Shown piece by piece: positions 1 to 24,566 of a stretch of DNA of 33,483 bases. A program made the position numbers and the translations under genes. The notes beneath the pieces were generated by a model, which made no database searches, was not told the DNA's origin, and saw nothing but the letters and a program-made list of their open reading frames with translations. The stretch is from a virus: the IMG/VR virus record IMGVR_UViG_3300005253_001075, positions 1-33,483 of that record; one strand, 5' to 3'. How positions within the stretch are numbered: the first letter of the stretch is position 1; each line of letters opens with the position of its first letter.

Positions 1-1901
1 ACACGGAGCTTCGTATCTCCCAAGAAGCCCAGATTGTCAGGCAACGCAAGACGTCCAAAAACGTCTACGGTCTCCTGTTCGATGACCAGAAGGACATGCC
101 GGACAAGGGCACGTTCACCGAGTGGCGCCGCAAGTACATCGGGCGTCCTGTATCTGAGCATCAGAAGGAACTCGTTCAGGCTTATGAGGATCGATCGAAT
201 CTGGTTGTCTTCACATTGATGCCACCGGGATCTGGGAAAGACACCACAGCGGGCGACTTCCTTCTCTATGAGACGTGCGATGACCGTTACTTGCGTACCG
301 CGTGGATCATGCGTGGAGTCGATTTCGCCAAACGACGTGTAGCAGAGCGCCTCGACCCATATCTCACTAACCCACGCACCTACCGCGACGCACCTCTCGG
401 ACCCGACTGCACCGTACCGACAGGGAATCTTATCGAGGACTATGGGCCGTTCAAGTTCAAGAAGGGCATGGTCGATCGAGAAGGCAACCGGTGTGAGCCG
501 ACGACGTGGACGAAAACTGAGATTTACTTCCTCAAAACCGGGGCAACAGAAGCCGACCCAAGCCTGTGGGCTACAGGGATGGAGGGTCAAACCTATGGGT
601 CGCGAGTCGGTTTGATGGTCATGTCCGACGTGTTTGACCGTGAAAACCAGTTGACCGTCACGAAACGCGAGTCCCAGTATCAGTGGGTGATGGGTACGGC
701 AATGTCACGTCTGGACTCTCGGGGACGCCTCATCTTCCTTGGCACCCGTTGTCTATCTGGTGACAACTATGAGCGTCTTATGAACGCGTTCGTCGGTGAG
801 GCTCCGGTCGTATATCAGGGCAGGCATTACACGAAATATGCGAACGGTGTCGCCGTCGTCATCATGCCCGCTATTGAACATGACGCCGAAGGCAACGAAG
901 TCTCATATTGGCCTGACGAGTTTCCACTGGATTCACACTTCGAACTGCCGGATGGTACCCGTATTCTGACTGAAGACGCTGACGAGGCGTATCTCGCTCA
1001 GAAGTATGGCGGCAGGGTCAAACGTATCCGTGGCCTGCGTGAGATCAGGGAACGTGACCGCGACCTGTTCGACACGATGTATCAGCAGAAGCCGCCCGAC
1101 GAGATCACTGGGGACTTCACCGACTTGACCCTCGACGCGGCCGACGATGAGGAACGCACATACGGTGTGTACCGTCCGAACGAACTCATCGTCATCGGCG
1201 CTGACCCTGCCCGTAGCGCTGGTGCTGCTTGGGTCGCATGGGGGATAGATCGTGACAAGGGCACCATCACACTCATCGACTACTTCTTCGGGGAGAAGCT
1301 CGGTATCAGTGGCATCAAATCGAAGCTGGTCCTCCAGCCGATCACTCTCTACAACCCGGTGTGGTACTGCTATGAGACGAACCGTGAAGCTGCGGTCATC
1401 GAAGATCCTGAGATCACGAAAGTGTTCGCGGACCTCGGTGTGAATCTGCAACGGCACAACACGAACGTAGGGAACCGCGGCTCCATGACGATCGGTGTCC
1501 CGTCGCTCTCCTTCTATATGCGGTCTAAGATCATTCGCTGGCCCACGATGACCGCCAAAGATCGCGATCGGACACAGTTGGTGAAAGACCATTTCAAGAC
1601 GTGGGATCGCAAAGAGGCTCTGAATCTGAATCGTGCCGCACTCAAATCGCATCCTGACGATATTGCTATGGCCGCTTGGGTAGGGTTTGTGAAAGCTCTC
1701 GCCCTGTTGCAGCGGCGTTCCGGTGGCCGCAAGAAGCAGGCGATGCCGGTGCCTCACAAGATCCAGGAGAAGTTCGATCGTATGGCCGAGCGCAAACGTG
1801 AGAAGAAGTATGTCAAGAAGCGTGAACGCCACCCGGCACCAAACATGAGAGAACTACTGAATGCGGTGATAGGCTCCGACGGAGGTGAGCAATGGCCCTA
1901 G
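1..1901 (+). CDS. terL: Phage terminase large subunit (window-edge partial)
   Basis: Packaging motor ATPase and nuclease that pumps phage DNA into the prohead through the portal and cuts it. The frame is open to base 3, so the first ATG at 96 is internal and the true start lies before the window; joined to the GTG at 33462 it would give about 640 aa. Counting from Met at base 96: Walker A PPGSGKDT at 43-50, a Walker B-like hydrophobic stretch ending in SDVFDRE near 175-185, and coupling-motif-like LIFLGT near 210. An RNase H-fold nuclease follows, with Asp370 in GADPA, Glu427 in YETN and Asp521-Asp522 in HPDDIAMA, the usual three acidic positions. The tail is rich in Lys and Arg. The stop overlaps the portal start by 10 bases. 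The family is secure; no small subunit lies next to it. Confidence 0.95.
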   Translation, partial: TELRISQEAQIVRQRKTSKNVYGLLFDDQKDMPDKGTFTEWRRKYIGRPVSEHQKELVQAYEDRSNLVVFTLMPPGSGKDTTAGDFLLYETCDDRYLRTAWIMRGVDFAKRRVAERLDPYLTNPRTYRDAPLGPDCTVPTGNLIEDYGPFKFKKGMVDREGNRCEPTTWTKTEIYFLKTGATEADPSLWATGMEGQTYGSRVGLMVMSDVFDRENQLTVTKRESQYQWVMGTAMSRLDSRGRLIFLGTRCLSGDNYERLMNAFVGEAPVVYQGRHYTKYANGVAVVIMPAIEHDAEGNEVSYWPDEFPLDSHFELPDGTRILTEDADEAYLAQKYGGRVKRIRGLREIRERDRDLFDTMYQQKPPDEITGDFTDLTLDAADDEERTYGVYRPNELIVIGADPARSAGAAWVAWGIDRDKGTITLIDYFFGEKLGISGIKSKLVLQPITLYNPVWYCYETNREAAVIEDPEITKVFADLGVNLQRHNTNVGNRGSMTIGVPSLSFYMRSKIIRWPTMTAKDRDRTQLVKDHFKTWDRKEALNLNRAALKSHPDDIAMAAWVGFVKALALLQRRSGGRKKQAMPVPHKIQEKFDRMAERKREKKYVKKRERHPAPNMRELLNAVIGSDGGEQWP

Positions 1902-3781
1902 ATTTGGAAGACATAAAGCTGGCCCGTGAATGGGGTCTCGACTTCCACTCCCAATGGAAAGCGCAGCTTCGCACCAACGACGCCATCGCCTCCGGTTTGT
2001 GGCAGATAGCTTGGGGCGACGGTGAAGTAGACGACGCCTCACCTCTCGTACAGAACGTGTACCTCGGTGCTCTCGAGGACAAGACGAATACTGCCGGTGC
2101 AGGGAGTCCCGCCATCTTCGTGCCGCCGCCGCCCGGTACGACTGAGGATCGTGGCGAGAAGATCGCGCAGAAACGCAAACGCGTGTACCAGTCTTATGGG
2201 GACCGTTCCGACATGCCGAAGCTGCGCAAGAAGCTGTACCGTGACTGGCTTCATGCCGGTGCAGGGTTCATGATCCCGTGGACCGACTTCTTCGATGAGA
2301 ACTCACAGCCGACCCCCACAGCGTCACGGGCACCGTACTTCATGCACCTCGATCCCAGACAGGCGTACCCGTTGGCTCACGACAACCGTGACCGTCTCGT
2401 CAAGATCATGTTCATCCGACAGCGGCGTGTCGCCTCTTTGAAGGAAGAGTACGGTGCGAACCTTCCGGCGTTCAGAGGGTTCAAGACGTTCAGGACGCTC
2501 AAACAGATGGACGATGCCGAGTTTCTGGAAGAGGTCTGGTATTTCGACTCAACATATTGGGGTGTGGCGTTGGGTGATTCTCTCCTGTCGCGTGAGCATC
2601 AGGGGCGTGCGATTCTTCCGAACACGTTGCTTGACAGTATCGGTGGGTCGAATCTGGTGTGGGTCGATGAGCCGACGAAGCATGGGCTCGGTCGCTGCCC
2701 TGTCCTTGAGATGAAGCGTTTGACTCATGACGGCTCATATCGGGGTGCGCTCGAAGATGTGATCCCGGCAATGCGTACTGCTCAGAATTTCATGGCCCGT
2801 CTGCTCGATGACATGGAGCAGAACATCTATGCCCCGGTGGTGTTGGACAACATCGAGAATGAAGAGGATTACGGGCCTGGTGCGATTCTGCGAGGTACGG
2901 GTGACGGTCGTGCGGCGATTCTGCGTGACCGCCCGAACGTCAACTTTGAGGCCCAACGTACTGTCACCGACATCATCTCCCAAGCACACAGGCAAGCCAC
3001 TTGGCCGGTGCAACGTTCAGGTGACGCAGATGCATCAGTCGTTTCTGCCAAGGGTGTTGTGGCTCTTGCCGGTTCGTTCAACTCTGAGCTCGCTACGGCG
3101 CAGCAGGATATGGAAATGACCCTGATGGATGCGAACCGTGTCGCCGCGGCGTTTGATGAGAAGCATTGCTTCGGGTTGAAGAAGATTCATGTCATGGAAG
3201 GTGTGAGGGCGTTCAACGTCAAATACGATCCGGCGAAGCTGTTCAAAGGCGACTATCGCAACAAGGTGTCGTACGGCGATTCGACGGGGATGGACGAATC
3301 GAACCGTCTCACCAAACTGGCTCTGTTGAGGAATCTTGAAGCTATCAGTCTTCGTACGTTCATGGAGAAGTCTGGGGCTACTGAAGATCCGTTGCAGGAG
3401 GAACGCGACATCGCTATTGAGAATCTGACGAAGATGTTCTACACGGTTCTGCTGCCGCAACAGATCGAGCAGGGCAACATCTCAGCTTTGCAAGACTTCG
3501 TTGTCCGCATAGATGATGATGGTGAGACTGTGCGTTCCGCGGTGCTTCAGACGATCAAGGAATTGGAGATTGCCGCGGGTCCGGTGCCGGGTCAGGGCGG
3601 TAACGGTCAGGGCCCGGGTGACGTGATTCAGCAGATGCGTTCGTTGGCTTCGGGCGGCATTCCGGGTCAGGCCGCGGGGCAACCCGAGCCGCCGACGATA
3701 GGTAGAGATTTGCAGAACATGCTGCCATCAGGTCAACGACGGCTAGTATCAGAGACAGCCCCAGGCGGCACCGCCGCGTAG
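1892..3781 (+). CDS. Phage portal protein
   Basis: Probable portal: the dodecameric ring at one capsid vertex through which DNA enters and leaves. It is 629 aa, in the range of podovirus portals, starts inside the terL stop behind a GGAGGTGAG ribosome site, and sits directly after terL, the standard place. The chain has the mixed alpha/beta look of portals, a mid-protein helical stretch around MRTAQNFMARLLDDMEQN (about 290-310), and a Gln/Gly/Pro-rich C-terminus after residue 560. I see no motif that proves the family; the call rests on size, position and general likeness. Confidence 0.82.
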   Translation: MALDLEDIKLAREWGLDFHSQWKAQLRTNDAIASGLWQIAWGDGEVDDASPLVQNVYLGALEDKTNTAGAGSPAIFVPPPPGTTEDRGEKIAQKRKRVYQSYGDRSDMPKLRKKLYRDWLHAGAGFMIPWTDFFDENSQPTPTASRAPYFMHLDPRQAYPLAHDNRDRLVKIMFIRQRRVASLKEEYGANLPAFRGFKTFRTLKQMDDAEFLEEVWYFDSTYWGVALGDSLLSREHQGRAILPNTLLDSIGGSNLVWVDEPTKHGLGRCPVLEMKRLTHDGSYRGALEDVIPAMRTAQNFMARLLDDMEQNIYAPVVLDNIENEEDYGPGAILRGTGDGRAAILRDRPNVNFEAQRTVTDIISQAHRQATWPVQRSGDADASVVSAKGVVALAGSFNSELATAQQDMEMTLMDANRVAAAFDEKHCFGLKKIHVMEGVRAFNVKYDPAKLFKGDYRNKVSYGDSTGMDESNRLTKLALLRNLEAISLRTFMEKSGATEDPLQEERDIAIENLTKMFYTVLLPQQIEQGNISALQDFVVRIDDDGETVRSAVLQTIKELEIAAGPVPGQGGNGQGPGDVIQQMRSLASGGIPGQAAGQPEPPTIGRDLQNMLPSGQRRLVSETAPGGTAA

Positions 3782-3791
3782 GAGGAAAAAC

Positions 3792-4067
3792 ATGCCCCTA
3801 TCTGTAACCCAACCGGCAGCGAGTGAGTTGGCTAGGACGCCAGTCATACGCCTCACGTCTGCCCGATATGCCCGGTCTACATGGTCGCCGCCCGGCATGA
3901 GCTATGGCATTGATTTCAACAAGAGCGGCCACGGGTTCATCAGCGAGACCCATTTCAATGACCACATCGGGTTCGATATGGCCGACAGTATGGGCATGAC
4001 GGTAACACGCATGACCGCAGGCGACCCCACGACCCGCCGTGTCGCTAACGAACAACCCACCCGATAA
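3792..4067 (+). CDS. Small structural-module protein, unknown
   Basis: A 91-aa protein with a strong site (AGGAGG) eight bases before its ATG. I do not recognise it. It is neutral to basic, has a central GIDFNKSGHGFISETHF stretch and no membrane segment or Cys. It lies between the portal and the three lectin-like paralogues and is probably co-transcribed with them; the same AAGGAGAC ribosome-site cassette that precedes the paralogues begins right at its stop. A minor virion or decoration component is possible but not shown. Confidence 0.7.
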   Translation: MPLSVTQPAASELARTPVIRLTSARYARSTWSPPGMSYGIDFNKSGHGFISETHFNDHIGFDMADSMGMTVTRMTAGDPTTRRVANEQPTR

Positions 4068-4080
4068 GGAGACAGCAATT

Positions 4081-4776
4081 ATGCCCGACACAATTCCTAC
4101 CAGTCCCGCGGATGGGACTCACATCTTTGACGACTTCCACTCGAATGCGGCGGTGACGACTGGCCTGCTCGGCAGCCTTGACTGGCTGATGACGACAGTT
4201 GGCGGCGGTGCATCTACGCCTTCATACCTCGCTTCCCAGAATGGGGTTATGAGGCTGACATCGGACGGCACGACCGCCCGTGGTTTGGCTGTCCATCTCA
4301 TGCCTGACAAGGTGACGTTGGGTGGCGGTGATGGCGTCTTCGTCCGTGCCCGTATCCGCTTGGCGACGACCCTTACCGGGAACAACTTCCGTTTCGGGTT
4401 CTCCGCTTCGGTCACCTTGACCGAACCAGTCGTCGGCGTGTGGATCGATTGTGATTCCGGTCTCCTGTCGTTCGACGTGGCCTCCACCAACGGTGACATA
4501 TCGAAGGCTGTGACGGGCGTGAAGACACTGACATCCGGCACAACGATGATCGTTGATGTTTGGCACGATCTTGAGCTGCGTCTCTCCGGCACAAACGCCA
4601 ACGGCGGACCTGACCGGATCGACTGTTTCGTAGACGGCGAGTTCGCCGGTGCGATCAAGAACTCACTGCTCGGCTCTGCCGAGACGATGGAGTTCTCTAT
4701 CGTCGCTTGGGACGACGCCGGTACAGCACAGAAGTTCGACATTGACTACTACGAGGCGTATATCCCCCGCGTCTGA
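4081..4776 (+). CDS. Lectin/LamG-like virion protein, tandem copy 1
   Basis: First of three adjacent paralogues, 231 aa. The start at 4081 is chosen over an in-frame ATG at 4039 because AAGGAGAC lies just before it and because the copies then align from SPADGTHIFDDF near residue 8. Shared landmarks are GLLGSLDW, GNNFRFGF, LSFDVAS, GTTM, the Asn-Gly-Gly-Pro run and a C-terminal FDIDYYEAYIPRV. The beta-rich pattern, with an FVDGE strand late in the chain, resembles concanavalin A/LamG jelly rolls, which often bind glycans in phage fibres or capsid decorations. Its place between portal and capsid genes suggests a virion surface role. The fold is inferred from pattern, not motif proof. Confidence 0.8.
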   Translation: MPDTIPTSPADGTHIFDDFHSNAAVTTGLLGSLDWLMTTVGGGASTPSYLASQNGVMRLTSDGTTARGLAVHLMPDKVTLGGGDGVFVRARIRLATTLTGNNFRFGFSASVTLTEPVVGVWIDCDSGLLSFDVASTNGDISKAVTGVKTLTSGTTMIVDVWHDLELRLSGTNANGGPDRIDCFVDGEFAGAIKNSLLGSAETMEFSIVAWDDAGTAQKFDIDYYEAYIPRV

Positions 4777-4792
4777 CAAGGAGACAACAATC

Positions 4793-5503
4793 ATGCCCGA
4801 CAACTTTTCTTCAAGTCCCGCGGACGGGACACACATATTCGATGACTTCCACAATAACCTGGCACTGACGGACGGCCTGCTCGGCAGTCTCGACTGGAAC
4901 ATCACGGCTCTCGGTAGCTCGGCTACTCCTTCGTTCATCGCGTCACCGAACGGGATCATGAGGCTGACGGCGGCCGGGGCGACTGGTGATGGTTTGGCTG
5001 TCCACCTAACGGAAGACGCCGTGACGTTGGGCGGTGGCGATGGCGTCGTTATCCGTGCCCGTGTCCGAATGGTCACGACCCTTACGGGGAACAACTTCCG
5101 CATCGGTCTGGATGATTCGCTCACCTCGACGGACGGCACCGTAGGCATATTCTTCGTCAGCACCGCAGGTGTCCTGTCATTCGATGTGGCTTCTAGCAAC
5201 GGCGACGTGACGAAGGCCGTGACAGGCATCTCGACACTGACATCAGGCACAACGATGGTTCTCGGCACATGGTACAACATCAAGTTGGAGCTCTCTGACA
5301 CGAACACCAACGGCGGTCCTGAGACCATCAAGTGTTTCGTTGACGGCGAGTTCGGTGGGGAGATAAGCGCCAACGCAGGCGTCCCCTCGCTGCTCGGCTC
5401 CACCGAGACGATGGAATACAAGATCGTGATGTGGGACTCCGGTGCCGGTGCTGCTCAGGTCTTCGAGATCGACTACTACGAGGTATATATCCCCCGCGTC
5501 TGA
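4793..5503 (+). CDS. Lectin/LamG-like virion protein, tandem copy 2
   Basis: Second copy, 236 aa. The start at 4793 matches copy 1 (both begin MPD) and follows TGACAAGGAGACAACAATC, the same inter-gene cassette as before copy 1; the longer upstream frame overlaps copy 1 and is not used. It is closer to copy 1 than copy 3 is, sharing GLAVHL, VTLGGGDGV, TLTGNNFR, LSFDVAS and CFVDGEF. It has a short insertion (SANAGVPS, near 195-202) before LLGS.ETME. Likely a beta-sandwich, glycan-binding or decoration protein as for copy 1; the biochemical role is unknown. Confidence 0.8.
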   Translation: MPDNFSSSPADGTHIFDDFHNNLALTDGLLGSLDWNITALGSSATPSFIASPNGIMRLTAAGATGDGLAVHLTEDAVTLGGGDGVVIRARVRMVTTLTGNNFRIGLDDSLTSTDGTVGIFFVSTAGVLSFDVASSNGDVTKAVTGISTLTSGTTMVLGTWYNIKLELSDTNTNGGPETIKCFVDGEFGGEISANAGVPSLLGSTETMEYKIVMWDSGAGAAQVFEIDYYEVYIPRV

Positions 5504-5518
5504 TAAGGAGACGAAACA

Positions 5519-6214
5519 ATGACATCTTTCTCAACCAGTCCCGCGGATGGGACACACATATTCGATGACTTTGCCTCCAATGAGTCGATAGCGGACGGTC
5601 TGATCGGCAAGCTCAATTGGGATATGACGACGATCGGCAACGTGTCCGTGCCTTCATATGTAGCGGGACCGAACGGGATTCTGAGGCTCACGACGGCGGC
5701 TACCGCCGATGGCGATGGTGTGGCGCTCACGCTAGAAGATGATGTCCTTGTCCTCGCCGGTACGAATCAGGTGTTCCGTTGCCGGGTCCGGTATCCAGTG
5801 GAGATTCCCACCAACAACTTCCGTATCGGGTTCCTTGATGTACTCACATCGGGGGAGCCTGAGGTCGGAGTGTGGATCAACTCAGACGGCGGGCTTCTGT
5901 CCTTCGACTGCGCCAACACCACAACCGACAAGACGAAGGCAGTCACCGGGGTTCCGACGTTGACGGGTGGGACGACAATGGTTGTCAACACTTGGCACGA
6001 CCTCGAGCTTCAAATGTCTGGTACGAATGCGAACGGCGGCCCCGATACCATCTCGTGTTTCGTTGACGGATTCGCGGCGGGCCAGATCACAGGAAACGTG
6101 ATCGCTTCTACCGAGGTGATGGCGTTCGCCATTACGCATTGGCAGGACTCGGGTGGCGCGGACGCTCAGGCGTTTGACATCGACTACTACGAAGCCTATT
6201 TGCCACGCAACTGA
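5519..6214 (+). CDS. Lectin/LamG-like virion protein, tandem copy 3
   Basis: Third and most diverged copy, 231 aa, preceded by TGATAAGGAGACGAAACA. The ends are the best conserved parts: SPADGTHIFDDF at the start and FDIDYYEAYLPRN at the end; the middle differs most (VEIPTNNFRIGF replaces TLTGNNFR). The pattern fits duplication followed by divergence, with selection to keep the N-terminal and C-terminal segments, perhaps the attachment and interface parts. Same inferred fold and virion role as copies 1 and 2. Confidence 0.8.
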   Translation: MTSFSTSPADGTHIFDDFASNESIADGLIGKLNWDMTTIGNVSVPSYVAGPNGILRLTTAATADGDGVALTLEDDVLVLAGTNQVFRCRVRYPVEIPTNNFRIGFLDVLTSGEPEVGVWINSDGGLLSFDCANTTTDKTKAVTGVPTLTGGTTMVVNTWHDLELQMSGTNANGGPDTISCFVDGFAAGQITGNVIASTEVMAFAITHWQDSGGADAQAFDIDYYEAYLPRN

Positions 6215-6235
6215 CAGGAGTGACAGGAGTGGCAA

Positions 6236-6592
6236 GTGACTGCAAGGGCAACTACAACATCTGAAGATCTGGTCCCGAAGGGCTTACCACAAGGTTCTCG
6301 GCAACAGATCCGGCAACAGATGCAAGAGGCCAACGTGCCTCTGAGTTCAGAGGGCGGTGGGGGCGCAGGTCTCTCCCCTAGCTCGGCTGCGGTTACCCCG
6401 ACCGCGGTTGCCCCCGCCGCCCCTGTCTCCCGTGGCGACCTCGCCAACTTTGACGTGTTCTCAAATCGGGAACCGACTCCCGGGTTCCAAGCCACACCTC
6501 AGAGGCAGGTCATGTTTGAGAAGGTCAGGCAGTCGGATAATCTGGTGATGCAGTCCATCTTTCAGAGGATGGCCGGATACAAGGAAGGCTGA
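6236..6592 (+). CDS. Small Ala/Pro-rich protein, unknown
   Basis: A 118-aa protein starting at GTG behind AGGAGTGGCAA. The N-terminal half is Gln/Arg-rich and then Gly/Ala/Pro-rich (AAVTPTAVAPAAPVSRG near 53-69), looking disordered; the C-terminal third (FEKVRQSDNLVMQSIFQRM) should be helical. I do not recognise it. It sits two bases before the giant gene and could be a linker or assembly partner of that protein; that is inference from position only. Confidence 0.7.
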   Translation: MTARATTTSEDLVPKGLPQGSRQQIRQQMQEANVPLSSEGGGGAGLSPSSAAVTPTAVAPAAPVSRGDLANFDVFSNREPTPGFQATPQRQVMFEKVRQSDNLVMQSIFQRMAGYKEG

Positions 6593-6594
6593 CA

Positions 6595-9500
6595 GTGACT
6601 TTCGACCAGCGACCCGAAGATGCTGATGTCGGGTTGGAAGGGTCTGTCGATCCTCCTGAGCTGTCTCTCCCTAGCGAGCCTGAACGTCCCCGTTCACCGA
6701 TTGGGCCGGGACGCAGGCAGAGGCAAGCACCCCGGACGTTCGGACCCCCCGCACCGCCGGTGATGTCTGGCGGTCGGCGTCGTGACATGATGTCTGGCGG
6801 TGCCCGACGTGTACCGGAGGGGTGGACCGCAGGAGACATGACGATTCTTGAGGGAATGGTCAGGGCGGCTCATTACATGGTCCCCAGTGAAGATCTGAAC
6901 AAGATCACTCAGATGGTGATGACCAACTCTGACCCCTCCATTATCCAGTCGGGCTCTGCCAAGTTCGCACGTCAGTTGGGTCTGTCCACTCGCGAGATGT
7001 TTGAGGAAGAAGCCGTCCTCAAACTCCTTGGGTTCGTCAGTGATGAGGATGCGTTTGCTCAGGCGACAGTGGATAGGTTCTATGAGACGGGGGCGGCTCT
7101 GGCGAACACGTCGAAGCTGTTTGCTGAGTCTGAAGAGATCAAGATGACTGTGACTACTCATTGGCTTGAGGCTGAGGATGTCCGCGGTAGAATCGCAGGG
7201 CAACTCGCTGAACGTGGTCTCGTCTTCGGGGTTGGAGACAAGATTGAAGGGTTGCGTGGCAAGTCTCTTAAGTGGAAACGTGACGGCGACCAGCTTGCGT
7301 TGCGATGGTTCACAGAAGATCCGAAGCCCGGTGAAGATGCTTTCGTGGATGTGCTGATTCATCTGAAACCGGGGACTGAGACGAACACCAGTATCGACGC
7401 TGTGACCGAATATCTGTTGGCTGTCGGTGGTGTAGCGCATGTCGTCGCCCCCACATCTGGTGATGTCCCTGGCAGGCAGAACTTCGTTGGTGCTCTGTTT
7501 GAGGGCGCGGACGACATGCTCAACTGGGCGCAAAAGTTCGGTGGCGGATACCTTGAAGAGACGATCAGTGAACTGTCCACCCAGATGTCTACGAGTCTAG
7601 CTGCCGTTTCGATGAACCCTGTCCCCGAGCAGCAGGAGGCAGATGATGAGGCGGTGAGGGAGCAGGAGTCGATTCAGGCGGTGACGCGCACGATGCGGGA
7701 CAATACTGCCGTTGCGATCGCTCGCCGGGAGATGTTGGAGAATCCTGAGCAAGCGATGTCAGCCACTTGGCAGGCCGGTCTTGCCGGTGCCGCCATGCTT
7801 GAACAGGACGAGTTGGAGGCTCAGGCAACAACGATTCTGTCTGACCTCGATGCCGCGGAGAAGCGCAGGCTTGAAGAGCAGTCGTTTCTTGGCGAGTTCA
7901 TCGAACAGGACTTGGCCCCCCCAGTCCTTGGAGCTCTTGAGGTGTGGATTGAAATGCTGTATTTCGGTGGCATCGTCATTCTCGACGCTACCAACATTGA
8001 CGCTTGGATCGAGATAGCTCAGGACATCAGTGAGAACGGTATCGACGCCCTATTCGATCCGATGAATCTTCAGAAGTTTGTGAGCCCTATCGATCTGGAG
8101 TTCGTCATCGAGCAGGTTCGGAACATTCAGGAAGAGGGGCTTCCGAAGGCTCTCGCCGCATATGTTGAGGCGACCCAGGACACCACGTTCGCAGATTATT
8201 ACGGTATCGATCCCGAGTCGAATTGGGCTGCGTGGGTCAACCAGGCCGGTCTTGTCGTGTTCGATCCTGTGACGTGGGGGACGCTCGGTGCAAGCGCTTC
8301 GTGGAACGCTTTGAGACGCTCAGTGCAGACTGTCGCCGGTGTTGAGAGGATCATGCAGTCGCGGAATATGCTGTCCGCCATAAAGAACATCGCGGTGAAA
8401 GACAGTGTGGGGACCGTGATGATTATGCAAGAGGGCAACATGGGAAGCACCGCCATTGCAAAGCTGTTCCGTATCGCGGGGACACACGTTGATGACAAGG
8501 CTGCCCAAATTGCCCAGATGCAGGAGATCAGAACGATAATGAAGGGTCCGGGTGTGTTCCCCGCCAACGGCGGCTTCTACATTCCGTCGCCTGCCGCGGT
8601 GATGCGACGCAAGACAACCCTCGGCATCTCCCAATGGTTCAAGATCGCCCCTAGTGACACGAAGGCACGCAGCTTCATGCAGGACGTTCTGATCCGTGCC
8701 TCCAATTCGCGGTCCATCAACATCTCTGAACGTGAATGGCTGTCCGAACGGTTCCGCGTCATCCAGGTGAAACATGCGGGTGACGCGAAGGCTATGGCTG
8801 ATGACGCGGCTCGGGCGGTTGAGACGTATGAGGCGTACAGGGCTGGTGACATTTCGGTTGCGATGATGGAAGGCCGCTTCCACAAACTGAAGGGCGAGAT
8901 TGTTGATCTTGACATCTCTCTGATGCCCGGTGAGGTGAAGCAGATTCCGAAGCTTCGCAAGCAGGTTGGTGAGTGGAACGACTCGGTGACTGAACTTGAC
9001 AGGCGGATCGCTGGTGCAGCAGATGATGCTACGAGGGAAGCCTTTGAGACTTCACGCGCGCAGGCGATCAAGAACCGTGACGAAACCCAGGCGCTCCTAG
9101 ATGTCAACAGTGGTGAAGCATCTCGGCTGTACGATCAGCGTGTCAAAGACCTCGCCGGTAAACAGCGAGAAGTCAAACGCATCGAAGGGCTTGTAGAAGA
9201 CCTCGGAACCGCAAGCCGCGACCGCTCCCTCCTTGAACGTGACGCTCTGAAATATATGGCCGACTGGATGGAGGAATGGGGAGTCCCCGTCAAACTGAAT
9301 CTTGATGGTTCGACCAAAATGCACCCCATCTTCGGTGACATTCCGCTGTTCGATCTGGACGATGTTGTCGGACCTCGCGGAGCCTCCCCCACTAGAGGGG
9401 TAGACAAGGTGAGTGGCCTGTCTCCGCTGGGCGCAGAGTTTGAAGCGACGTTTGAGGGTGTACCGCGCGTGTGGGCTGAGCTGCCCGTGTCACCTACCGA

Positions 9501-12500
9501 GCTGTTGGCGTGGAAGACGATGCAGCGCAACGCAGGATCGCGGCTCATGTGGAAGGCAATCAACTCCCCCACAGGGCAGATCGTCAAGGCGACGATGGAC
9601 AACGTGCAAGCCATTTTTGCTTCCTCCGTCCTCTTGAATCCGATCACCGCTACCCGCTCCCACTTCGATGAGGTGATCCGTTTCTACGAGAACAACGGAT
9701 TCTCCGTTGACCTTCTGAAGTCAACGTTCGCCATAGAAGGGAAAATCGGACCTGAAGCCCGAGCGTTCAGCCGCGACGTTCTAGACAACTTTCTTGCACC
9801 GAACCAGCAGATGTGGCAGTTGGTGAAACCCGGTGACAGGGGCCAATGGGTCCACGCTGAACGCTGGATCAACGGTTCCCTAACGAAGCAAGAACTGTTT
9901 CAGGGCTATGCCCGCGCGGTCGTCAACAGTGGCGGTGACGAGGCAGCGGCCCGTGTCATCTGGGAGAAGTTCTGGAACGAACGGGGCGTCAACTTTGCGA
10001 AGCGCACCACGGTCAACGGGACACCGATCACGGCAGGGAACTCATTTGATATCGTCAGAGACGGATTCGACAACTGGCTCGGTGGCTTCAAGGCGGTCGA
10101 GAAGAAGGGTCGGATTACTGCGCCGGAGGCCCGCAAGGAGATACTGAACGCTGCGGCGAACGGGGTCGATGTGAAGTGGGGGCCGAAGATATGGCGTCAG
10201 TTGCCTGAGGTGCCGGCACAGGTTTCAACACAGGCAGGCAGCAAAGCGTCCGGTGCGTTCCGTCACACAATGGATGTGGCGTTCCGCGCAGGCTATGGTG
10301 CTCCGCAGTCACGCCGCGGCGAAGTGTTCTACGACCATGCCTACGAGTGGGCCAAAGGCGTCTACGACGAATCGTATGCGGGCAAGATGCTGAATGCCAA
10401 ATGGCTTCTGGATAACGGTCACGCTACCTCAATGAACCATGCCCAAGAGATCCTGAATCAAGGCAGACGTTCCCAGGTGGTGCGTGACCTCATCGCTGAA
10501 TCAGGCATGGTGATCGAATCCGACCTTCGCAACGCAGCCATGCGATATGCGGCGTCTTCGGCTGACGACATGATGTATACGTTCAGTGCCACTTCGATCT
10601 TCGGCAAGAAGATTGCCCGTGTATATCCGTTTGGCAGGGCGCAGCTCGACTACTACCAGTGGTGGTGGAAGAAGCTGACCCAGCCGACCCAGTTCGTCGG
10701 AGGCCAGTTGCCCGTCCTTGGCGGCGTGAAACGTCTCGCCTCTGTCCCCGCAGTCGGCGGCAACCTTCGCCTCATTGACCGCATGGCCCATCTGGTGAAT
10801 CTGAATACCACTGGTGAGCGTCCCGGTGTCGGCACTCCGGCAGGGATTGTGAATCATTTCTCTTTCCTTCCCCAAGCGTTTGATGAGCAGATACTATTCG
10901 ACTTGTCGCCCGGTGTCACACCGATCGCCGGTTGGGCCGCGAACCTTCCTTTCGTTCCCGACTCAGTACGCAATTTCATTCAAGAACTCCACCCGCAGCA
11001 CCGCATCTTCACCGAGCCGTATGACAACATGGGCCAAGCGTTGGCCGACACTATGGATGTGCTGTTCCCGAAGGGCGGCATGTCGATCAGGAATCAAGTG
11101 GCTGCATACACCCGTCTTGCAGCTCAGGCTGTCGCAATGGTGACGTTGGATTACGACCCGAACCTGCCAGTCACAGATGAGCAGCAGCGGCGCATCACAC
11201 CGATCATCAACGCACAGATGGGCGGTTGGGCCGGTGGCCCGTGGTACTTCGACCGGGTGAAAATCGACATGATCGACTGGTTGAAGGAGAACGGCAACAA
11301 GACCCTGCCGGACAAGAGCGACGACGATCTGCTGTTGGAGTTCGGGTTCCGCAACGACGAGGTATCCATCGCGTCCCTTGGGGAACAGAACCTTGATTTC
11401 CTGTCCCGCGTAACAGGAGAGGTACGGTACGGCGGTTCCGACTTCTCATCTGTCGATGGCCTTCTCGGTGTAGACCAGTTCGTGGACGCGTGGTTCGAGT
11501 CGGGTTCCATATCTGATGCTAAGCGAGATTCCCTTCTGATTGGTTGGGAGCTTGTGAACTCAGGCGAGGCGACTGTGGATCAGCGGGTCGGGTTCGCTGA
11601 CGAAGTACTCGGGGTGCTCTTCAACAGTGGGGTGCTGACCGACGATGAACGTATCGAGTTCATCGCGCGCAACATCGGTGTCCACGCAAACATGGTGTCA
11701 TCGCGTGAAGTGAACCTTGGTCTGATCCCTGTCGATGTCGCACCGGACATCAAGAGAGGCCGCATAGATACCGAAGACCTCGACCGTGCCAAAGAACTGT
11801 ACCGGCGCGGCGACAAAGAAGGATGGCTGGAATACCGGGACGCCACCGATGTCCGATTCGACATGCTCACCTCACGCCACCGTTCCGTCCGGGAGTTCCT
11901 CGATGTCATCTACAAACGTGCGACGAACGGGCTGACGATTGACAAGCGCAGCCAAGTGATCGGTGAGGATCGTTTCTCCCTGTCAGACCTTGATGTCAAC
12001 CTGACCCCCGAATGGTGGCAGGAACACGGCTCATGGCTTGAAGACCTCGGCACGTTCGGCCTGTCCGATGATCTGGTGGGCCAGTTGGTTGCTGGCGACA
12101 CCGTGGTCATGTCTCTTGAAGAGTTCAGGCAGGTCATCCTTGATACGAAGGGTACGTTCGGCTACCAGTATGAGGCCACCAACACTCTTGAGGCCGAACT
12201 GAACCGTATCGGTATCGATGACCGGCCTATGTCTTCCATCGGTATCCGTCTGAGTCAGATGCCCGGATTCGATGATGCCGACTTCGACAACACGGTCGGG
12301 CTGTCCCACTATGGGAAAGACCTCGCCAAAGACTTCAACGCTGCACTCAATCTCGGGCAGCGGGAGTTCGGTTGGAAAGGTCTCGATGAATGGGATGTTG
12401 AGTGGATAGACGAAGAGAAACGTGACGACGACGGGAACATTTTCGTGGTCAGGCACAGCCTTGAAGGCCTACGCTCACGGTTCCGTGTAGCCATTGCGCT

Positions 12501-13071
12501 CTCGGGTATGAACGCCACAGACGATAAGAGCTTCAGCGAAGAGAACTACGAGAACAGCCTGTACGGTCGCAACCTCGGTGATCTGAATTGGACACACCCC
12601 GAACCGCCGACGCTTGACAAGCTCGAACAGGACTGGTTTGAGACCGACACGCCGGAGCTTCTGTCCGTAGTAGATGGTGACACCATCAGGATTCCCACCG
12701 ATGACGGTCCTGCGTTCGTCAGGTTCATCGGATTGAACACACCTGAGAAGGGTGAGGACGGATTTCGGGAATCCTTGGAAGGTCTGGCCGATATTCTCCT
12801 TCAGGCCGACAAGGTGCAATTCGTTGTGTGGAAACCCAACGAGTACGGATTCAGAACCAGGGCATTCACTATTGAAGAGGATGTTGTGGTGACCCGCGAC
12901 CGTCTCCTAGTGTGGCTCTACATCGACGGTGTGCCCCTGTTCGACCCTGAAGAGTTCTCCCGCCAGAACGTTCGTGGCGTTAGGACGGGTGGTAGCGTCC
13001 CGGACTATCAGGTGTTGCTTGACGCTGAGATCACTCGCCGCGAGGTAGCATCCAGGGAAAGGAGTGACTGA
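6595..13071 (+). CDS. Giant 2158-aa virion-module protein with C-terminal SNase-like domain
   Basis: The largest gene, nearly a fifth of the window. GTG start behind AAGGAAGG. The first 80 residues are Pro/Arg/Gly-rich and probably disordered. A hydrophobic stretch near 440-465 and a long predicted coiled coil near 783-870 precede a mostly helical middle. Near 2023-2120 there is a staphylococcal-nuclease-like pattern: VVDGDTIRI (Asp2027, Asp2029), VRFIGLNTPE (Arg2043, Asn2048, Glu2051) and RDRLLVWLYIDG (Arg2103). These match SNase Asp19, Asp21, Arg35, Asp40, Glu43 and Arg87, except that Asp40 is Asn here. Its size and place between portal and scaffold fit an internal or ejected virion protein of a podovirus, which is inference. 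I found no polymerase, lysozyme or MuF signature. Confidence 0.88.
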   Translation: MTFDQRPEDADVGLEGSVDPPELSLPSEPERPRSPIGPGRRQRQAPRTFGPPAPPVMSGGRRRDMMSGGARRVPEGWTAGDMTILEGMVRAAHYMVPSEDLNKITQMVMTNSDPSIIQSGSAKFARQLGLSTREMFEEEAVLKLLGFVSDEDAFAQATVDRFYETGAALANTSKLFAESEEIKMTVTTHWLEAEDVRGRIAGQLAERGLVFGVGDKIEGLRGKSLKWKRDGDQLALRWFTEDPKPGEDAFVDVLIHLKPGTETNTSIDAVTEYLLAVGGVAHVVAPTSGDVPGRQNFVGALFEGADDMLNWAQKFGGGYLEETISELSTQMSTSLAAVSMNPVPEQQEADDEAVREQESIQAVTRTMRDNTAVAIARREMLENPEQAMSATWQAGLAGAAMLEQDELEAQATTILSDLDAAEKRRLEEQSFLGEFIEQDLAPPVLGALEVWIEMLYFGGIVILDATNIDAWIEIAQDISENGIDALFDPMNLQKFVSPIDLEFVIEQVRNIQEEGLPKALAAYVEATQDTTFADYYGIDPESNWAAWVNQAGLVVFDPVTWGTLGASASWNALRRSVQTVAGVERIMQSRNMLSAIKNIAVKDSVGTVMIMQEGNMGSTAIAKLFRIAGTHVDDKAAQIAQMQEIRTIMKGPGVFPANGGFYIPSPAAVMRRKTTLGISQWFKIAPSDTKARSFMQDVLIRASNSRSINISEREWLSERFRVIQVKHAGDAKAMADDAARAVETYEAYRAGDISVAMMEGRFHKLKGEIVDLDISLMPGEVKQIPKLRKQVGEWNDSVTELDRRIAGAADDATREAFETSRAQAIKNRDETQALLDVNSGEASRLYDQRVKDLAGKQREVKRIEGLVEDLGTASRDRSLLERDALKYMADWMEEWGVPVKLNLDGSTKMHPIFGDIPLFDLDDVVGPRGASPTRGVDKVSGLSPLGAEFEATFEGVPRVWAELPVSPTELLAWKTMQRNAGSRLMWKAINSPTGQIVKATMDNVQAIFASSVLLNPITATRSHFDEVIRFYENNGFSVDLLKSTFAIEGKIGPEARAFSRDVLDNFLAPNQQMWQLVKPGDRGQWVHAERWINGSLTKQELFQGYARAVVNSGGDEAAARVIWEKFWNERGVNFAKRTTVNGTPITAGNSFDIVRDGFDNWLGGFKAVEKKGRITAPEARKEILNAAANGVDVKWGPKIWRQLPEVPAQVSTQAGSKASGAFRHTMDVAFRAGYGAPQSRRGEVFYDHAYEWAKGVYDESYAGKMLNAKWLLDNGHATSMNHAQEILNQGRRSQVVRDLIAESGMVIESDLRNAAMRYAASSADDMMYTFSATSIFGKKIARVYPFGRAQLDYYQWWWKKLTQPTQFVGGQLPVLGGVKRLASVPAVGGNLRLIDRMAHLVNLNTTGERPGVGTPAGIVNHFSFLPQAFDEQILFDLSPGVTPIAGWAANLPFVPDSVRNFIQELHPQHRIFTEPYDNMGQALADTMDVLFPKGGMSIRNQVAAYTRLAAQAVAMVTLDYDPNLPVTDEQQRRITPIINAQMGGWAGGPWYFDRVKIDMIDWLKENGNKTLPDKSDDDLLLEFGFRNDEVSIASLGEQNLDFLSRVTGEVRYGGSDFSSVDGLLGVDQFVDAWFESGSISDAKRDSLLIGWELVNSGEATVDQRVGFADEVLGVLFNSGVLTDDERIEFIARNIGVHANMVSSREVNLGLIPVDVAPDIKRGRIDTEDLDRAKELYRRGDKEGWLEYRDATDVRFDMLTSRHRSVREFLDVIYKRATNGLTIDKRSQVIGEDRFSLSDLDVNLTPEWWQEHGSWLEDLGTFGLSDDLVGQLVAGDTVVMSLEEFRQVILDTKGTFGYQYEATNTLEAELNRIGIDDRPMSSIGIRLSQMPGFDDADFDNTVGLSHYGKDLAKDFNAALNLGQREFGWKGLDEWDVEWIDEEKRDDDGNIFVVRHSLEGLRSRFRVAIALSGMNATDDKSFSEENYENSLYGRNLGDLNWTHPEPPTLDKLEQDWFETDTPELLSVVDGDTIRIPTDDGPAFVRFIGLNTPEKGEDGFRESLEGLADILLQADKVQFVVWKPNEYGFRTRAFTIEEDVVVTRDRLLVWLYIDGVPLFDPEEFSRQNVRGVRTGGSVPDYQVLLDAEITRREVASRERSD

Positions 13072-14060
13072 TGGCCGAACCGGAAACCGCTGATGGTGGT
13101 GTAACCGTCAGGCTGGAACGGATAGAGAAGATCCTCACCACTCCAACGCCTCCCAAGTATGCGACAACTAGGCCAGAGGACTACAGGTTCGTCCGCAAGT
13201 CCTTCGCCGATCAGTGGGATCTCAACGTTTCCGATCTCACTTTCCGCATCAACTCTCTGGCCGAACTGTGGAGGGAAGATCACGGTGGAGTGTGGCCCAG
13301 AGGCACAGACCTGTTGGGATGGGATGTGGCACAGAACTCGATATGGACCTTCGCTTCAGGAGCCTCGAATCTCCCAGCGACTATCACTCTCATCAACGAT
13401 GACGGTAGTGAGCAACGATGGTTCAACAATCCTGTGCGCGGCCTGATTCCGGTACCTGCCCCGATAGATGCTCCGTTCACCGAGGAAGCGCTCCAGGCGC
13501 GACGCGGAGCAGTCATCTCTGCCGCGGATCTTCCGTCGATCCTCGCAGGCCTTTCCCCTATCAGTCAACCCCGCGGTGGTGGCGGCACGGGCCGCAAAGC
13601 TAGATCCTTCGACCGCAGACAGCTCTCAGAAGCCGCGACGAACAGATGGCGCGGCCTACTCCTAGAGGAACCTGAGGACGCTGAACTCGACAGCCTCGTG
13701 TCGGACTACATCACAGAGGCCAATGCCTTCTGGATCAGGGACTCAGGTAGTCTCGACTTCGACACGTTCGTCACCGACCGTATACGGACTCAGGACAGGC
13801 ATGCCTTCCTGTATGGCAAGAAGCCGGAGTTCCAGTCTGAAGCTGAGTACATGGGCGGCTTCCGTCAGACGGTCAGCCAGTTCGGTCTCAGCTCCGCAGG
13901 CGAACTCCGCGAATTGGAATCTGGAGCTTCGTCTGGTGTTGGCCTTGCCGGTTTCGGTGAACGGGTGTCCCGTACCCGCGAATCAAGGCTCATCAATCAG
14001 GGCTCGTTCTCTCAGCGCCTTGCGGGTAGTCTCGCAGGGTCAGGGCTTGGAGGTTCATAG
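13071..14060 (+). CDS. Virion-module protein of unknown function (329 aa)
   Basis: ATG shares one base with the giant gene's stop (TGATG), so translation is likely coupled. The N-terminal half is globular (aromatic-rich, with RPEDYRFVRKSFADQW near 30-45). The middle has a Gly/Arg-rich linker (PRGGGGTGRKARSFDRR, near 165-181), followed by a helical segment beginning LSEAATNRW, and the C-terminus is Gly/Ser-rich. I do not recognise the family. Sitting between the giant protein and another large unknown, it may belong with them as a core or ejection protein. Confidence 0.75.
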   Translation: MAEPETADGGVTVRLERIEKILTTPTPPKYATTRPEDYRFVRKSFADQWDLNVSDLTFRINSLAELWREDHGGVWPRGTDLLGWDVAQNSIWTFASGASNLPATITLINDDGSEQRWFNNPVRGLIPVPAPIDAPFTEEALQARRGAVISAADLPSILAGLSPISQPRGGGGTGRKARSFDRRQLSEAATNRWRGLLLEEPEDAELDSLVSDYITEANAFWIRDSGSLDFDTFVTDRIRTQDRHAFLYGKKPEFQSEAEYMGGFRQTVSQFGLSSAGELRELESGASSGVGLAGFGERVSRTRESRLINQGSFSQRLAGSLAGSGLGGS

Positions 14061-15613
14061 TGGCTACCGGAATCCAGCTTCTCGATGACATCCTCACATT
14101 CATCGACAGGACTTGGCCCGAACTTGAAGGGTCGCTCCCTGATGCACGGGTGCAGGGTTGGGTTGCTGAGATCGAGTCGGGGACAGGCAGGACGGTCGAA
14201 CAGATCCGTCTCGATATCCTTCAGTTCGTGGTCGGTGACGAACGTATCGACCAGTTCGCCGGCGACGTGTTTGAAGAGTTCGGCCTTGACCCTGCCACTG
14301 GGGACGAGACTGCTGAAGAGCGCATTCAGCGTATCAGTGACGAGTTGCAGAGCGGGGAGAAGACGTTCGCGGGTTTGCGCGAAACGCTTGCCGGGTTTGC
14401 TCCGCCGCCTCAACGTACACCCGACACGATAGGTGGACGCCAGATTCCGGCAGGAATGCGCCTCATCCGCATCACTGATCCGTCGGGTACTGACGCGGGT
14501 GAACTGTTCCTCCTTGTCGGTGACGTGTTCGGTGTGAACCTTGCCTATGAGATCGGTGATAGGGCTGCCCTCGATGAACAGTTCGGCGGCATCACCAACT
14601 TCGAATCGTTCGAGACCTTCACTCAAGCCCAGTTCGATGAATCCGATACGCTGCTTGTCGGCACTACCGACGAGCTTGGCCCAGAATCGTTGCAGGCACA
14701 GTTTGAGCGTGACATCCGGTCTCTCGGGTTGGAATCGCCCCCCGCTTGGCTCATAGCCGACCGTGAAGCCATGACCGTGTTTGTCACAGCAGTCAACGAA
14801 GGCTGGTCTACCGAACGCACCAACAATGCCCTGTCAGGAACACAGGCGTTCAAGGACCGTTTCATCGGTCTAGATGTTGTGATGAACCAACTGGGTACTT
14901 CTTCCATCACCGAGGGGATCGCCGAGTTCACCCGACGTGAAGACCAGATTAGGCAGTCCCTTCTCGCGTCTCGTGGCCCCTCTACCGACGTGTCCCAAGA
15001 AACCGTCACCTCCCTCATCGCGTCCGGTTGGCAACCCGCGGAGATTGAGGAACTGCTCGGTCTTGAGAAGCGGGTGAGGGACAACCCTGCCGCTATGGAC
15101 AACATCAACCAGATCCTCGTCTTTCAAGGCTTCGACCCTTTGGACCCTGATGACTTCGTTCAGTTTCTACAGGATCAGGATGCTTTGAGCCTCGACCCGT
15201 CGTTCACACCGTCAGACATCTTCGAGTCCATAAACGATGCCCTACGGTTCCAAGCCCTGTTGACTGAAGGTATTGAGGTCGATCTCGGATTCGCTACGGA
15301 GCTTGGTACTGGGGTGTCTGAAGGTATTGCTTCTATCGATCAGTTCTCCCGTCAGGCACAGTTGGCTGCCGGATTCATCGCAGCGAATCAGGCAGAACTG
15401 AACTTCGAGAAACTGGGCCTGTCGCGTGAGGACATCATCGCTGCTCAGTTCGGTGAGGTTCCTGAGGGTGGAAGGCCCGTGTCCGAGGTCAACCAGATCC
15501 TTGAACAGTTCGCACGGGAACGTTCAAAGGCGGCGCAAGGATTCTCGGGTGGCCAGTCGTTTATCGACGCTTCGGGCCGTCTGAGGACTCAAGGGTTCGC
15601 TGATTTCGCCTGA
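14060..15613 (+). CDS. Virion-module protein of unknown function (517 aa)
   Basis: GTG start overlapping the previous stop (TAGTGG). Acidic and mostly helical. Many short repeats of acidic-aromatic motifs (FDPLDPDDFVQFL near 354-366) and an Ala/Gln-rich helical segment near 430-460 (QFSRQAQLAAGFIAANQAE). No enzyme motif is visible. The gene ends the block between portal and scaffold; the three large unknown proteins in a row recall the sets of inner-core proteins in podoviruses, but I see no sequence link to the T7 gp14-gp16 proteins. Confidence 0.75.
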   Translation: MATGIQLLDDILTFIDRTWPELEGSLPDARVQGWVAEIESGTGRTVEQIRLDILQFVVGDERIDQFAGDVFEEFGLDPATGDETAEERIQRISDELQSGEKTFAGLRETLAGFAPPPQRTPDTIGGRQIPAGMRLIRITDPSGTDAGELFLLVGDVFGVNLAYEIGDRAALDEQFGGITNFESFETFTQAQFDESDTLLVGTTDELGPESLQAQFERDIRSLGLESPPAWLIADREAMTVFVTAVNEGWSTERTNNALSGTQAFKDRFIGLDVVMNQLGTSSITEGIAEFTRREDQIRQSLLASRGPSTDVSQETVTSLIASGWQPAEIEELLGLEKRVRDNPAAMDNINQILVFQGFDPLDPDDFVQFLQDQDALSLDPSFTPSDIFESINDALRFQALLTEGIEVDLGFATELGTGVSEGIASIDQFSRQAQLAAGFIAANQAELNFEKLGLSREDIIAAQFGEVPEGGRPVSEVNQILEQFARERSKAAQGFSGGQSFIDASGRLRTQGFADFA

Positions 15614-16315: not shown

Positions 16316-17194
16316 GTGGCGAACGAAGTAACGTGGAGCAACCTGCAAGGTGAATACTCTTATGAGTACCGTCTGCTCGCAGATTCCATCATCACAGCGC
16401 TCTACGAGTCGCTCGACATGCGCCAGTTTTCGATTGTGAAGCAGATCAAGAACTGGGCGTCGAACGCGGAGCGCTTCCCCAAGACCCCAACGCTCGTAGC
16501 GTCGGGGCTGACTGAAGGCACAGACCTCGTAACCAACACAGCATTCGCACCTACCCAGGTGACGCTGACCGTTGGAGAAGTTGGTCTCAAACTCACAGTC
16601 ACAGATCTGATGGCTATGGGCGGCATCGTCGGCATAGCGCATTACGGTCAGGAAGCAGGGAAGGCAGTGGCCGAGAAGCGCACTACCGACCTTGTGGCTC
16701 TCATGTCCGGGTTCTCAAACTCGGTTGGGACAACGAACACAGACATCACCGAAGCCTTCTACCTTGCTGCCATCGCACAGTTGCGTGGCGCCAAGGTCAA
16801 GAGACCGTATGTTGGAGTCCTTCACACGACTTCGTACTATTCGGAACTCATCGGTTCGATCGGTTCGACGTTCTCGGCCCTCGCCAATACTGGTGCAGGT
16901 GTCCGTGCAGAGTCGAACGATCTGCCGGGTGCAGGCGACGGGGGTATGGTTGGTGAGCTCTTCGGCACCACCGTGCTCATCACACCGCTTGTTGGCGAGG
17001 ATGGCAACAGCGACAAGATCAACGGCATGTACAACCCGAATCGTGCCATTGGTTACGTGGAGAAGTGGGCCATCAGGCCCGAGATGGAGCGAAAGCCATC
17101 GCTCCGTGGATCGGAGGTGGTCGTAACGGCCGCCTATGCCGTTGGGGAAACAGACGATATTTCGGGTGTCCGTATCGTCTCTGACGGCGTGTAA
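16316..17194 (+). CDS. Major capsid protein, HK97-like
   Basis: 292 aa, starting at GTG behind AAAGGAAGGTGAGG, right after the scaffold. The sequence has the style of HK97-fold capsid proteins: an N-terminal arm, PTLVASGLTEGTDL and the following beta strands (TQVTLTVGEVGLKLTV, near 80-95), a helix AEKRTTDLVALMSGF (the spine-helix type, near 119-133), and a late RAIGYVEKWAI...MERKPSLRGSEVVVTAAYAVG strand set near 242-282. I cannot tell whether the arm is cut. Position, length and a strong downstream hairpin agree with the main capsid gene. Confidence 0.85.
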   Translation: MANEVTWSNLQGEYSYEYRLLADSIITALYESLDMRQFSIVKQIKNWASNAERFPKTPTLVASGLTEGTDLVTNTAFAPTQVTLTVGEVGLKLTVTDLMAMGGIVGIAHYGQEAGKAVAEKRTTDLVALMSGFSNSVGTTNTDITEAFYLAAIAQLRGAKVKRPYVGVLHTTSYYSELIGSIGSTFSALANTGAGVRAESNDLPGAGDGGMVGELFGTTVLITPLVGEDGNSDKINGMYNPNRAIGYVEKWAIRPEMERKPSLRGSEVVVTAAYAVGETDDISGVRIVSDGV

Positions 17195-18596: not shown

Positions 18597-18717
18597 CCAT
18601 CTCGCTAGACCTGGCCCGATGTATTGGGATTGGCGTTGCGTGCGATGCAGCGAGGATGTCTATACACATACTCGCTGGTGGGAGTTCTTGTGGCGATGGA
18701 TCACTAAGGAGGACTGA
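18589..18717 (+). CDS. 42-aa Trp- and Cys-rich microprotein
   Basis: Starts ATGAGTGAC inside the previous stop (eight-base overlap); its own stop overlaps the next ATG (TGATGG), so it is locked between two genes by coupling on both sides. Contains CVRC and a run of Trp (YWDWRC, RWWEFLWRW), a zinc-knuckle-like head with an amphipathic Trp-rich tail. Too short to assign. Both overlaps and a good GAGG site support it as a real gene. Confidence 0.6.
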   Translation: MSDHLARPGPMYWDWRCVRCSEDVYTHTRWWEFLWRWITKED

Positions 18718-19622
18718 TGGCTACGCTCGCCGCGATGACCGACGATGTTCTCGACATGGTGTACGGCGTTGCCCGGATCGAACGCCCCGCTGAGGACACT
18801 CTGGTCACCGCCGTGTCCGGGACCACTGATGTAGCGTGGGAGTTGACCACGCCTGCCCTGTGGAAGCGTGGCGACTACTGCGAAGATCAGGCCGCTGGCG
18901 AGATTGTGATAATGACCACCGACCATCCCGCGGCTGGGAACGATGTGACGGTGAGGCGAGCCCAGAACGGTACGACTGCGTTGGCTGCATACGCCACAAC
19001 CGACGTGTTCTACAAGAACCCGATCTTCCCCCGCTACCGCATCGAGCGGTTCATCAACGAGACGGTGGACAATGACCTGTTCCCCCATGTGTGGATGGTG
19101 GGAGAAACCACTGTGTCGTTCACGGTCGGTGACACCACCTATGAGATGCCTACCGACTGTGGCGATGTGACCCAGGTGTACCAGTCCGATCTGAACTCTG
19201 ACGGCAAGTTCTATCCGATTGACACTCAGGCTTGGGAATACGTTGCCGTTGTTGCTGCTGCCGAGTCCACGAACCAGAACTTCCTTCGTATCCGTAAGGT
19301 CATTGATGAGACTGCCACGGTGTATGTGACGTACAAGCAGAAGCCAGATTCGTCCTCGCTCACTGACCTGTCTACGCCGCTCGCGGCGATGGTGCCGTGG
19401 CGTGTAGTCGGGAAGCTGCTGGCCGGTACACGTCTCACGCCTGCACGGTCGGCTCCCGGTAGGGCCACCCCTGTAGCGAACCAATCCGGCTCCCAGCTTT
19501 CAAGAGACTTCGCAGCGTTCGATGTCGAGTTCCGGCGTATGCGTAAGGATGAGCAGAACCGGCTGAACAGGCAGGTTCCGATCCAGAAACGGTTCCAGCG
19601 TTCGAGAGTCTGGGTTGGCTAG
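18717..19622 (+). CDS. Tail tubular (head-tail adaptor) protein candidate
   Basis: 301 aa. ATG overlaps the microprotein stop by one base behind AAGGAGGAC. N-terminal helix (AAMTDDVLDMVYGV), then a beta-rich domain (about 25-110) around TTALAAYATTDVFYKNP, a helical FPRYRIERFINETVDNDLF segment at about 102-120, and a C-terminal basic helical tail (EFRRMRKDEQNRLNR, near 271-285). The sequence style and the order capsid-adaptor-nozzle fit the gp11-like tubular adaptor that docks on the portal in podoviruses. No invariant motif is seen; called from context and architecture. Confidence 0.6.
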   Translation: MATLAAMTDDVLDMVYGVARIERPAEDTLVTAVSGTTDVAWELTTPALWKRGDYCEDQAAGEIVIMTTDHPAAGNDVTVRRAQNGTTALAAYATTDVFYKNPIFPRYRIERFINETVDNDLFPHVWMVGETTVSFTVGDTTYEMPTDCGDVTQVYQSDLNSDGKFYPIDTQAWEYVAVVAAAESTNQNFLRIRKVIDETATVYVTYKQKPDSSSLTDLSTPLAAMVPWRVVGKLLAGTRLTPARSAPGRATPVANQSGSQLSRDFAAFDVEFRRMRKDEQNRLNRQVPIQKRFQRSRVWVG

Positions 19623-24375: not shown

Positions 24376-24553
24376 TCATCAATCCGCCAACCATCGCCGC
24401 GTAATCAAGCAGGCAGTCCTCCCCACAGAGGAACCCGACAGTATGAATCGGGTCGTCTTCTTGCAATTCTCGGACTATGACTTGAATCCAGGTGTGCCTG
24501 ATACGTTTATCACATGATGCACAGTTGAGATAGCTCGTGATCTTGTCACTCAT
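24359..24553 (-). CDS. 64-aa zinc-ribbon-like protein
   Basis: MSDKIT start overlapping the gp3-like stop (ATGA). NCASCDKRI near 11-18 and FLCGEDC near 41-47 give two Cys pairs about 30 apart, a ribbon layout. Ends MKEAE. Small, probably cytoplasmic. Its flanks are the two identical 18-bp junctions. Confidence 0.66.
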   Translation of the reverse strand: MSDKITSYLNCASCDKRIRHTWIQVIVRELQEDDPIHTVGFLCGEDCLLDYAAMVGGLMMKEAE

Positions 24554-24566
24554 TCTGCTTCCTTCA
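24549..24566. repeat. 18-bp repeated gene junction, copy 2
   Basis: Second copy of CTCATTCTGCTTCCTTCA. On the minus strand it again encodes (V)KEAE-stop and the start of the next gene, so the 64-aa gene between the copies may have arrived by recombination at such sites. Confidence 0.8.

Follow-up and report, generated by a model that had tools for sequence, protein, structure and literature searches.

A staphylococcal nuclease-like domain at the C-terminus of a giant candidate ejection protein in a phage related to Beephvirinae

The locus and its genes

The window, meaning the whole stretch of DNA analysed here, comprises 33,483 bases and corresponds to the whole IMG/VR entry IMGVR_UViG_3300005253_001075. 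It is probably a genome fragment, because the ORF of the terminase large subunit (3..1901) runs off its 5′ end. This gene, like all others described in this paragraph, lies on the plus strand; it was recognized by PHROG_38 (E=3e-22) and by a Beephvirinae match in tblastn (1e-11), and its product is 69% identical to that of a second contig, L005, which is described below. The portal gene (1892..3781) matches the portal of phage FlowerPower (3e-20) and is 71% identical to its L005 counterpart. A giant ORF with a GTG start (6595..13071) encodes a protein of 2158 aa, a candidate ejection protein with a staphylococcal nuclease (SNase) domain at its C-terminus. The gene directly downstream (13071..14060) shares 44% identity with L005 positions 13065-14243 (E=5e-83). 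A probable major capsid gene (16316..17194) has weak matches to PHROG_283 (E=0.021) and to the FlowerPower major head protein (BLASTP, 0.022) and occupies the same position as in FlowerPower. The product of 18717..19622 resembles head-tail adaptors (PHROG_7578, 3.6e-20; PF24175 SU10_adaptor, 1.5e-5, just below the Pfam cut-off) and also has Beephvirinae matches.

Portal, terminase, adaptor, and gene order all mark this uncultured phage as a distant relative of the Streptomyces podoviruses (Beephvirinae). In the window, terminase and portal are followed by small genes and the giant protein, and then by the capsid and adaptor genes, which matches the arrangement in those phages. In FlowerPower and Immanuel3, the order is terminase, endolysin, portal, small genes, a giant gene of ~1640 aa, a ~280-aa gene, peptidase, glycosylase, and capsid. 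Podovirus morphology has been described for Abafar, a phage of the same group (PMC11536984). The placement of the giant protein in a virion module, proposed in an earlier note on this DNA, is thus backed by synteny with Beephvirinae podoviruses, with the capsid call being weak. The relatives suggest a host among Actinobacteria.

Between the portal and the giant protein, two long ORFs (4039-4776 and 4649-5503) share 128 bases, read in different frames; the overlap may be genuine, or it may stem from a misplaced start or a frameshift. On the minus strand, the product of 24550-25719 has 389 aa and contains a Gp3-like domain (PF18897, recombination directionality factor-like; 1.9e-33). It is shared with the Streptomyces phages mu1/6, VWB, and SF3, which suggests that genes have been exchanged with a different kind of actinophage. 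An exonuclease family protein (PHROG_298, 7e-31) is encoded at 26435-27256 on the plus strand.

The SNase-like domain

The C-terminal extension of the giant protein consists of two parts. The first, an adapter or linker (residues about 1891-2015; 12265..12639, plus strand), lies, in a low-confidence alignment, beyond the C-terminus of the relatives' proteins, and the second is the SNase-like domain (residues about 2016-2138; 12640..13008, plus strand). PHROG_452, annotated as endonuclease, matches the whole protein with E=4.4e-5, the domain alone with 1.9e-6, and the L005 domain with 2.7e-5; the match was also recovered in a six-frame search. A home-made profile built from 34 phage and bacterial SNases reached E=2.3e-10 against the tail, whereas the best value among 2000 shuffled versions of this tail was 0.62. 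Profile-profile comparison with hhalign gave a probability of 97.8% (P=8e-13). The Pfam SNase family PF00565 did not match the domain or the giant protein, nor was it found in a direct PF00565 search, and the tail is therefore classified, on sequence grounds, as a divergent SNase member.

The residues expected of an SNase active site are present. The motif VVDGDT starts at residue 2025; VRFIGLNTPE follows from residue 2042 and RLLVWLYIDG from residue 2103, each of them within 12660-13020. The DGDT motif (residues 2027-2030; 12673..12684) corresponds to Asp19-Gly-Asp21-Thr of the S. aureus enzyme, while Arg2043 (12721..12723), Glu2051 (12745..12747), and Arg2103 (12901..12903) are the equivalents of Arg35, Glu43, and Arg87, respectively. 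DGDT and these three residues are invariant in an alignment of 27 sequences, namely the two fusion proteins and 25 other SNases. The position equivalent to Asp40 is occupied by Asn2048 (12736..12738).

An AlphaFold2 (AF2) model built from the 27-sequence alignment had a pLDDT of 74 and a pTM of 0.67, and its strands and helices follow the order seen in SNases; known SNases were part of the input, which biases the prediction towards this fold. The S. aureus nuclease was the top match to this model in both Foldseek (probability 1.00, E 5e-6) and VIA-align (Z 10.2, rmsd 2.8, 118 residues). When AF2 was run with the two fusion proteins alone, the model was unusable (pLDDT 43). According to the model, with known SNases in its alignment, the OB-fold topology of SNases is present in the tail of the giant protein.

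The earlier note had described an SNase-like C-terminal domain from the letters alone. The motifs and the four residues it listed are all in place in the 2158-aa ORF, and its reading of the fold and of the residues is backed by the profile searches, by the conservation in L005, and by the OB fold that AF2 predicted from an alignment containing known SNases. By both profiles and model, the domain can be regarded as securely genuine, with its key catalytic residues intact and its nuclease activity predicted.

The Asp40 position

The same note had pointed to the change of the Asp40 metal ligand to Asn. The change is real and is present in both the window protein and L005, but it is a common natural variant and does not by itself imply lost activity. 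Asn is found here in 9 of 22 Bacillota and 4 of 28 Myxococcota hits to PF00565 and in all 11 SNases from related phages that could be read, while none of the 70 sequences in a Bacillaceae-dominated SNase set has it. The natural SNases of the Asn type that were inspected retain the Arg, Glu, and Arg residues. Since Asn is frequent in natural SNases, its presence is no sign of inactivity, and an activity loss due to Asn40 is unsupported. Asp40 thus appears not to be a strict requirement of the family; by sequence comparison, Asn looks ordinary and says little on activity. No published report of the measured activity of an Asn-form SNase was found.

A second phage with the same fusion

A portal search of IMG/VR yielded 80 loci, among them L005 (IMGVR_UViG_3300025889_014445), an independent contig and the one close relative found; it carries the same SNase fusion. 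Neither tblastn against phages nor a terminase search of genome contigs returned close relatives. The L005 giant protein has 2204 aa and is 44% identical to that of the window over its full length; by segment, identity is 43% in the body, 47% in the adapter, and 56% in the SNase domain. The stretch from DGDT to PE is the best-conserved measured part of the domain (64%). L005 retains the acidic pair of DGD and the equivalents of Arg35, Glu43, and Arg87, has Asn for Asp40, and carries Ala in place of Thr41. Because the domain is 56% identical between the two phages, against 43% for the body, it is kept by selection. Its occurrence in an independent contig, better conserved than the protein that carries it, also means that the fusion is not an assembly artefact. 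Upstream of the L005 terminase, a 390-aa ORF (2-1174) weakly matches a PHROG of unknown function.

The giant protein among its relatives

The giant protein itself belongs to a wider set. When the window and L005 proteins were compared with a profile of the others, hhalign gave P=3.9e-5 (probability 70.6%), compared with 0.28 for a reversed and 0.78 for a block-shuffled control. This homology is firm over about 92 columns alone, a core that holds the aromatic YPFGRAQ-like motif. In the window, the conserved core motif (DDMMYxFxAxSxxGKKxARxYPFGRAQxDYxQWW) spans residues 1313-1370 (10531..10704, plus strand) and lies inside both the best-conserved 100-residue block shared with L005 (69%) and the block aligned to other giant proteins. 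Pairwise BLASTP between the window protein and Beephvirinae-type giant proteins was not significant alone. In a longer alignment of low confidence, the relatives' C-terminus falls opposite window residue about 1886, leaving ~265 extra residues. This SNase-bearing extension is present in 2 of 36 complete giant genes, those of the window and L005; none of the other 34 proteins has an SNase, and the combination was not found elsewhere in the material searched. Transmembrane segments, considered as support for membrane insertion, did not recur consistently from one giant protein to another. In one locus (L053), the giant protein occurs as two adjacent ORFs of 768 and 827 aa (3113-5419 and 5391-7874), which is either a gene split or a sequencing frameshift.

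Stand-alone SNases are also found in this group. Podoviruses of the ct2KA10 type, among them ct2KA10 and the contigs behind loci L093-L107, carry a small separate SNase gene (in L003, at 24788-25225). All seven tested contigs with such a gene have a portal of the same family; the phage group therefore uses SNase in two ways, free and fused. On the origin of the fused domain and its relation to the free form, three trees disagree. The first tree groups it with SNases of related phages (0.87), and the others place it with two Myxococcota sequences (100) or loosely with cyanophage SNases; these placements are probably affected by long branches. Among the annotation rows read for other phage SNase matches, none was structural: they were called nuclease, endonuclease, or hypothetical, with one ‘cold shock protein’ and one ‘DNA replication/modification protein’. 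A genome from the Myxococcota search contains twelve PF00565 matches, two of them with in-frame stops.

Possible roles of the fused domain

We propose that the giant protein is the large, gp16-like protein with which a Beephvirinae-related podovirus delivers or ejects its DNA, and that a staphylococcal nuclease domain has been fused to its C-terminus in a small sublineage. Inside the head, the protein would lie close to the portal; it would leave together with the genome and bring its nuclease into the host cell to nick or cut host DNA and so help takeover. Catalysis would be metal-dependent phosphodiester cleavage by Arg2043, Glu2051, Arg2103, and the Asp2027/Asp2029 pair. In T7, gp16 is the largest ejection protein; it has an N-terminal transglycosylase, and its C-terminal part, which binds DNA, extends into the host cytoplasm (PMC8954989). 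By analogy, a C-terminal SNase would arrive with the genome and could cut host DNA. Packaging, ejection, catalytic activity, and the host DNA target are what we infer, and we give an active, host-cutting nuclease on a gp16-like protein an even chance.

One point against this proposal is the change of a metal ligand to a neutral residue. The Ca2+ that SNases classically require is in short supply in the cytoplasm. The phage must also keep an active nuclease away from the genome with which it is packed, and no inhibitor or immunity gene for it was identified. The broader claim, that podoviruses exist as a class whose ejection protein carries a working SNase, that they attack host DNA before phage gene expression, and that they spare their own DNA by metal starvation or packing, is more tentative and somewhat doubtful.

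The hazard of packing a nuclease with the genome would be in keeping with the SNase fold serving as a module for gripping or docking DNA, which would hold the leading genome end or ratchet DNA entry with little or no cleavage. The binding of DNA by the T7 gp16 C-terminus in the cytoplasm (PMC8954989) points the same way, as do Asn in place of Asp40 and, in L005, the replacement of Thr41 by Ala. Yet both phages keep the equivalents of Arg35, Glu43, Arg87, Asp19, and Asp21, conservation within the domain peaks at DGDT..PE, and Asn40 is frequent in natural SNases; we consider such a role unlikely, if still a serious competitor.

A C-terminal nuclease on a head-region protein encoded near the portal, present in two of 36 giant proteins, also recalls a polymorphic toxin, that is, a variable nuclease tail on a delivered protein used mainly against competing cells. 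MuF toxins, which often have nuclease domains, were proposed to be injected with phage DNA in this way (PMC5576092). Membership among MuF toxins was rejected: at E<=1, the Phage_Mu_F domain (PF04233) had no match in the window, in L005, or in any of four relatives, while positive controls were detected. Furthermore, the gene following the giant ORF has an L005 counterpart and is therefore not clearly a dedicated immunity gene, both known members share the same domain with no swap, and no integrase was noticed in the phage, all of which makes a toxin-style tail improbable. Least probable of all, and hardly to be expected, is a structural or tail-associated protein that is not ejected and whose nuclease works on DNA outside the cell, such as extracellular DNA or that of lysed cells: virion location does rest on gene order, and many SNases are secreted and draw on Ca2+ outside the cell, but the gene sits between portal and capsid genes, and its size and core motif are common to podovirus giant proteins.

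If the ejected-nuclease proposal is true, a weapon against host DNA sits inside the particle itself, and how a virion shields its own genome from a general nuclease becomes testable. Known ejection proteins have wall-degrading or DNA-binding functions. No paper on an SNase carried by an ejection protein was found in the open-access literature, where absence is weak evidence. Nuclease tails on phage-delivered proteins are already known; what is new is an SNase on a podovirus giant protein, not a new system.

Comparison with known systems

The window domain shares with staphylococcal nuclease (micrococcal nuclease, thermonuclease; PF00565, PHROG_452) the fold, the beta-beta-beta-alpha-beta order, DGDT, and the equivalents of Arg35, Glu43, and Arg87. 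It differs in lying below Pfam detection, in having Asn for Asp40, and in an insert before the Arg87 strand; staphylococcal nuclease is free or secreted, whereas the window domain is fused to a 2000-residue phage protein. MuF toxins likewise have a nuclease C-terminus on a head-module protein, whose injection together with phage DNA has been proposed. They come from temperate phages, while in the window phage no MuF domain, immunity gene, or integrase was noticed. T7 gp16 is alike in the working model only, as a large podovirus delivery protein with an enzyme domain and a cytoplasmic C-terminus; its enzyme is an N-terminal transglycosylase, in contrast to the C-terminal nuclease of the window protein. 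The counterparts of the gp9 (FlowerPower, Immanuel3) and ct2KA10 type resemble the window protein in gene position, core block, and giant size, and the phages that carry them have related portals, terminases, and adaptors. These gp9-type relatives are 1530-1900 aa long and lack an SNase, whereas the window protein continues into a C-terminal extension of ~265 residues.
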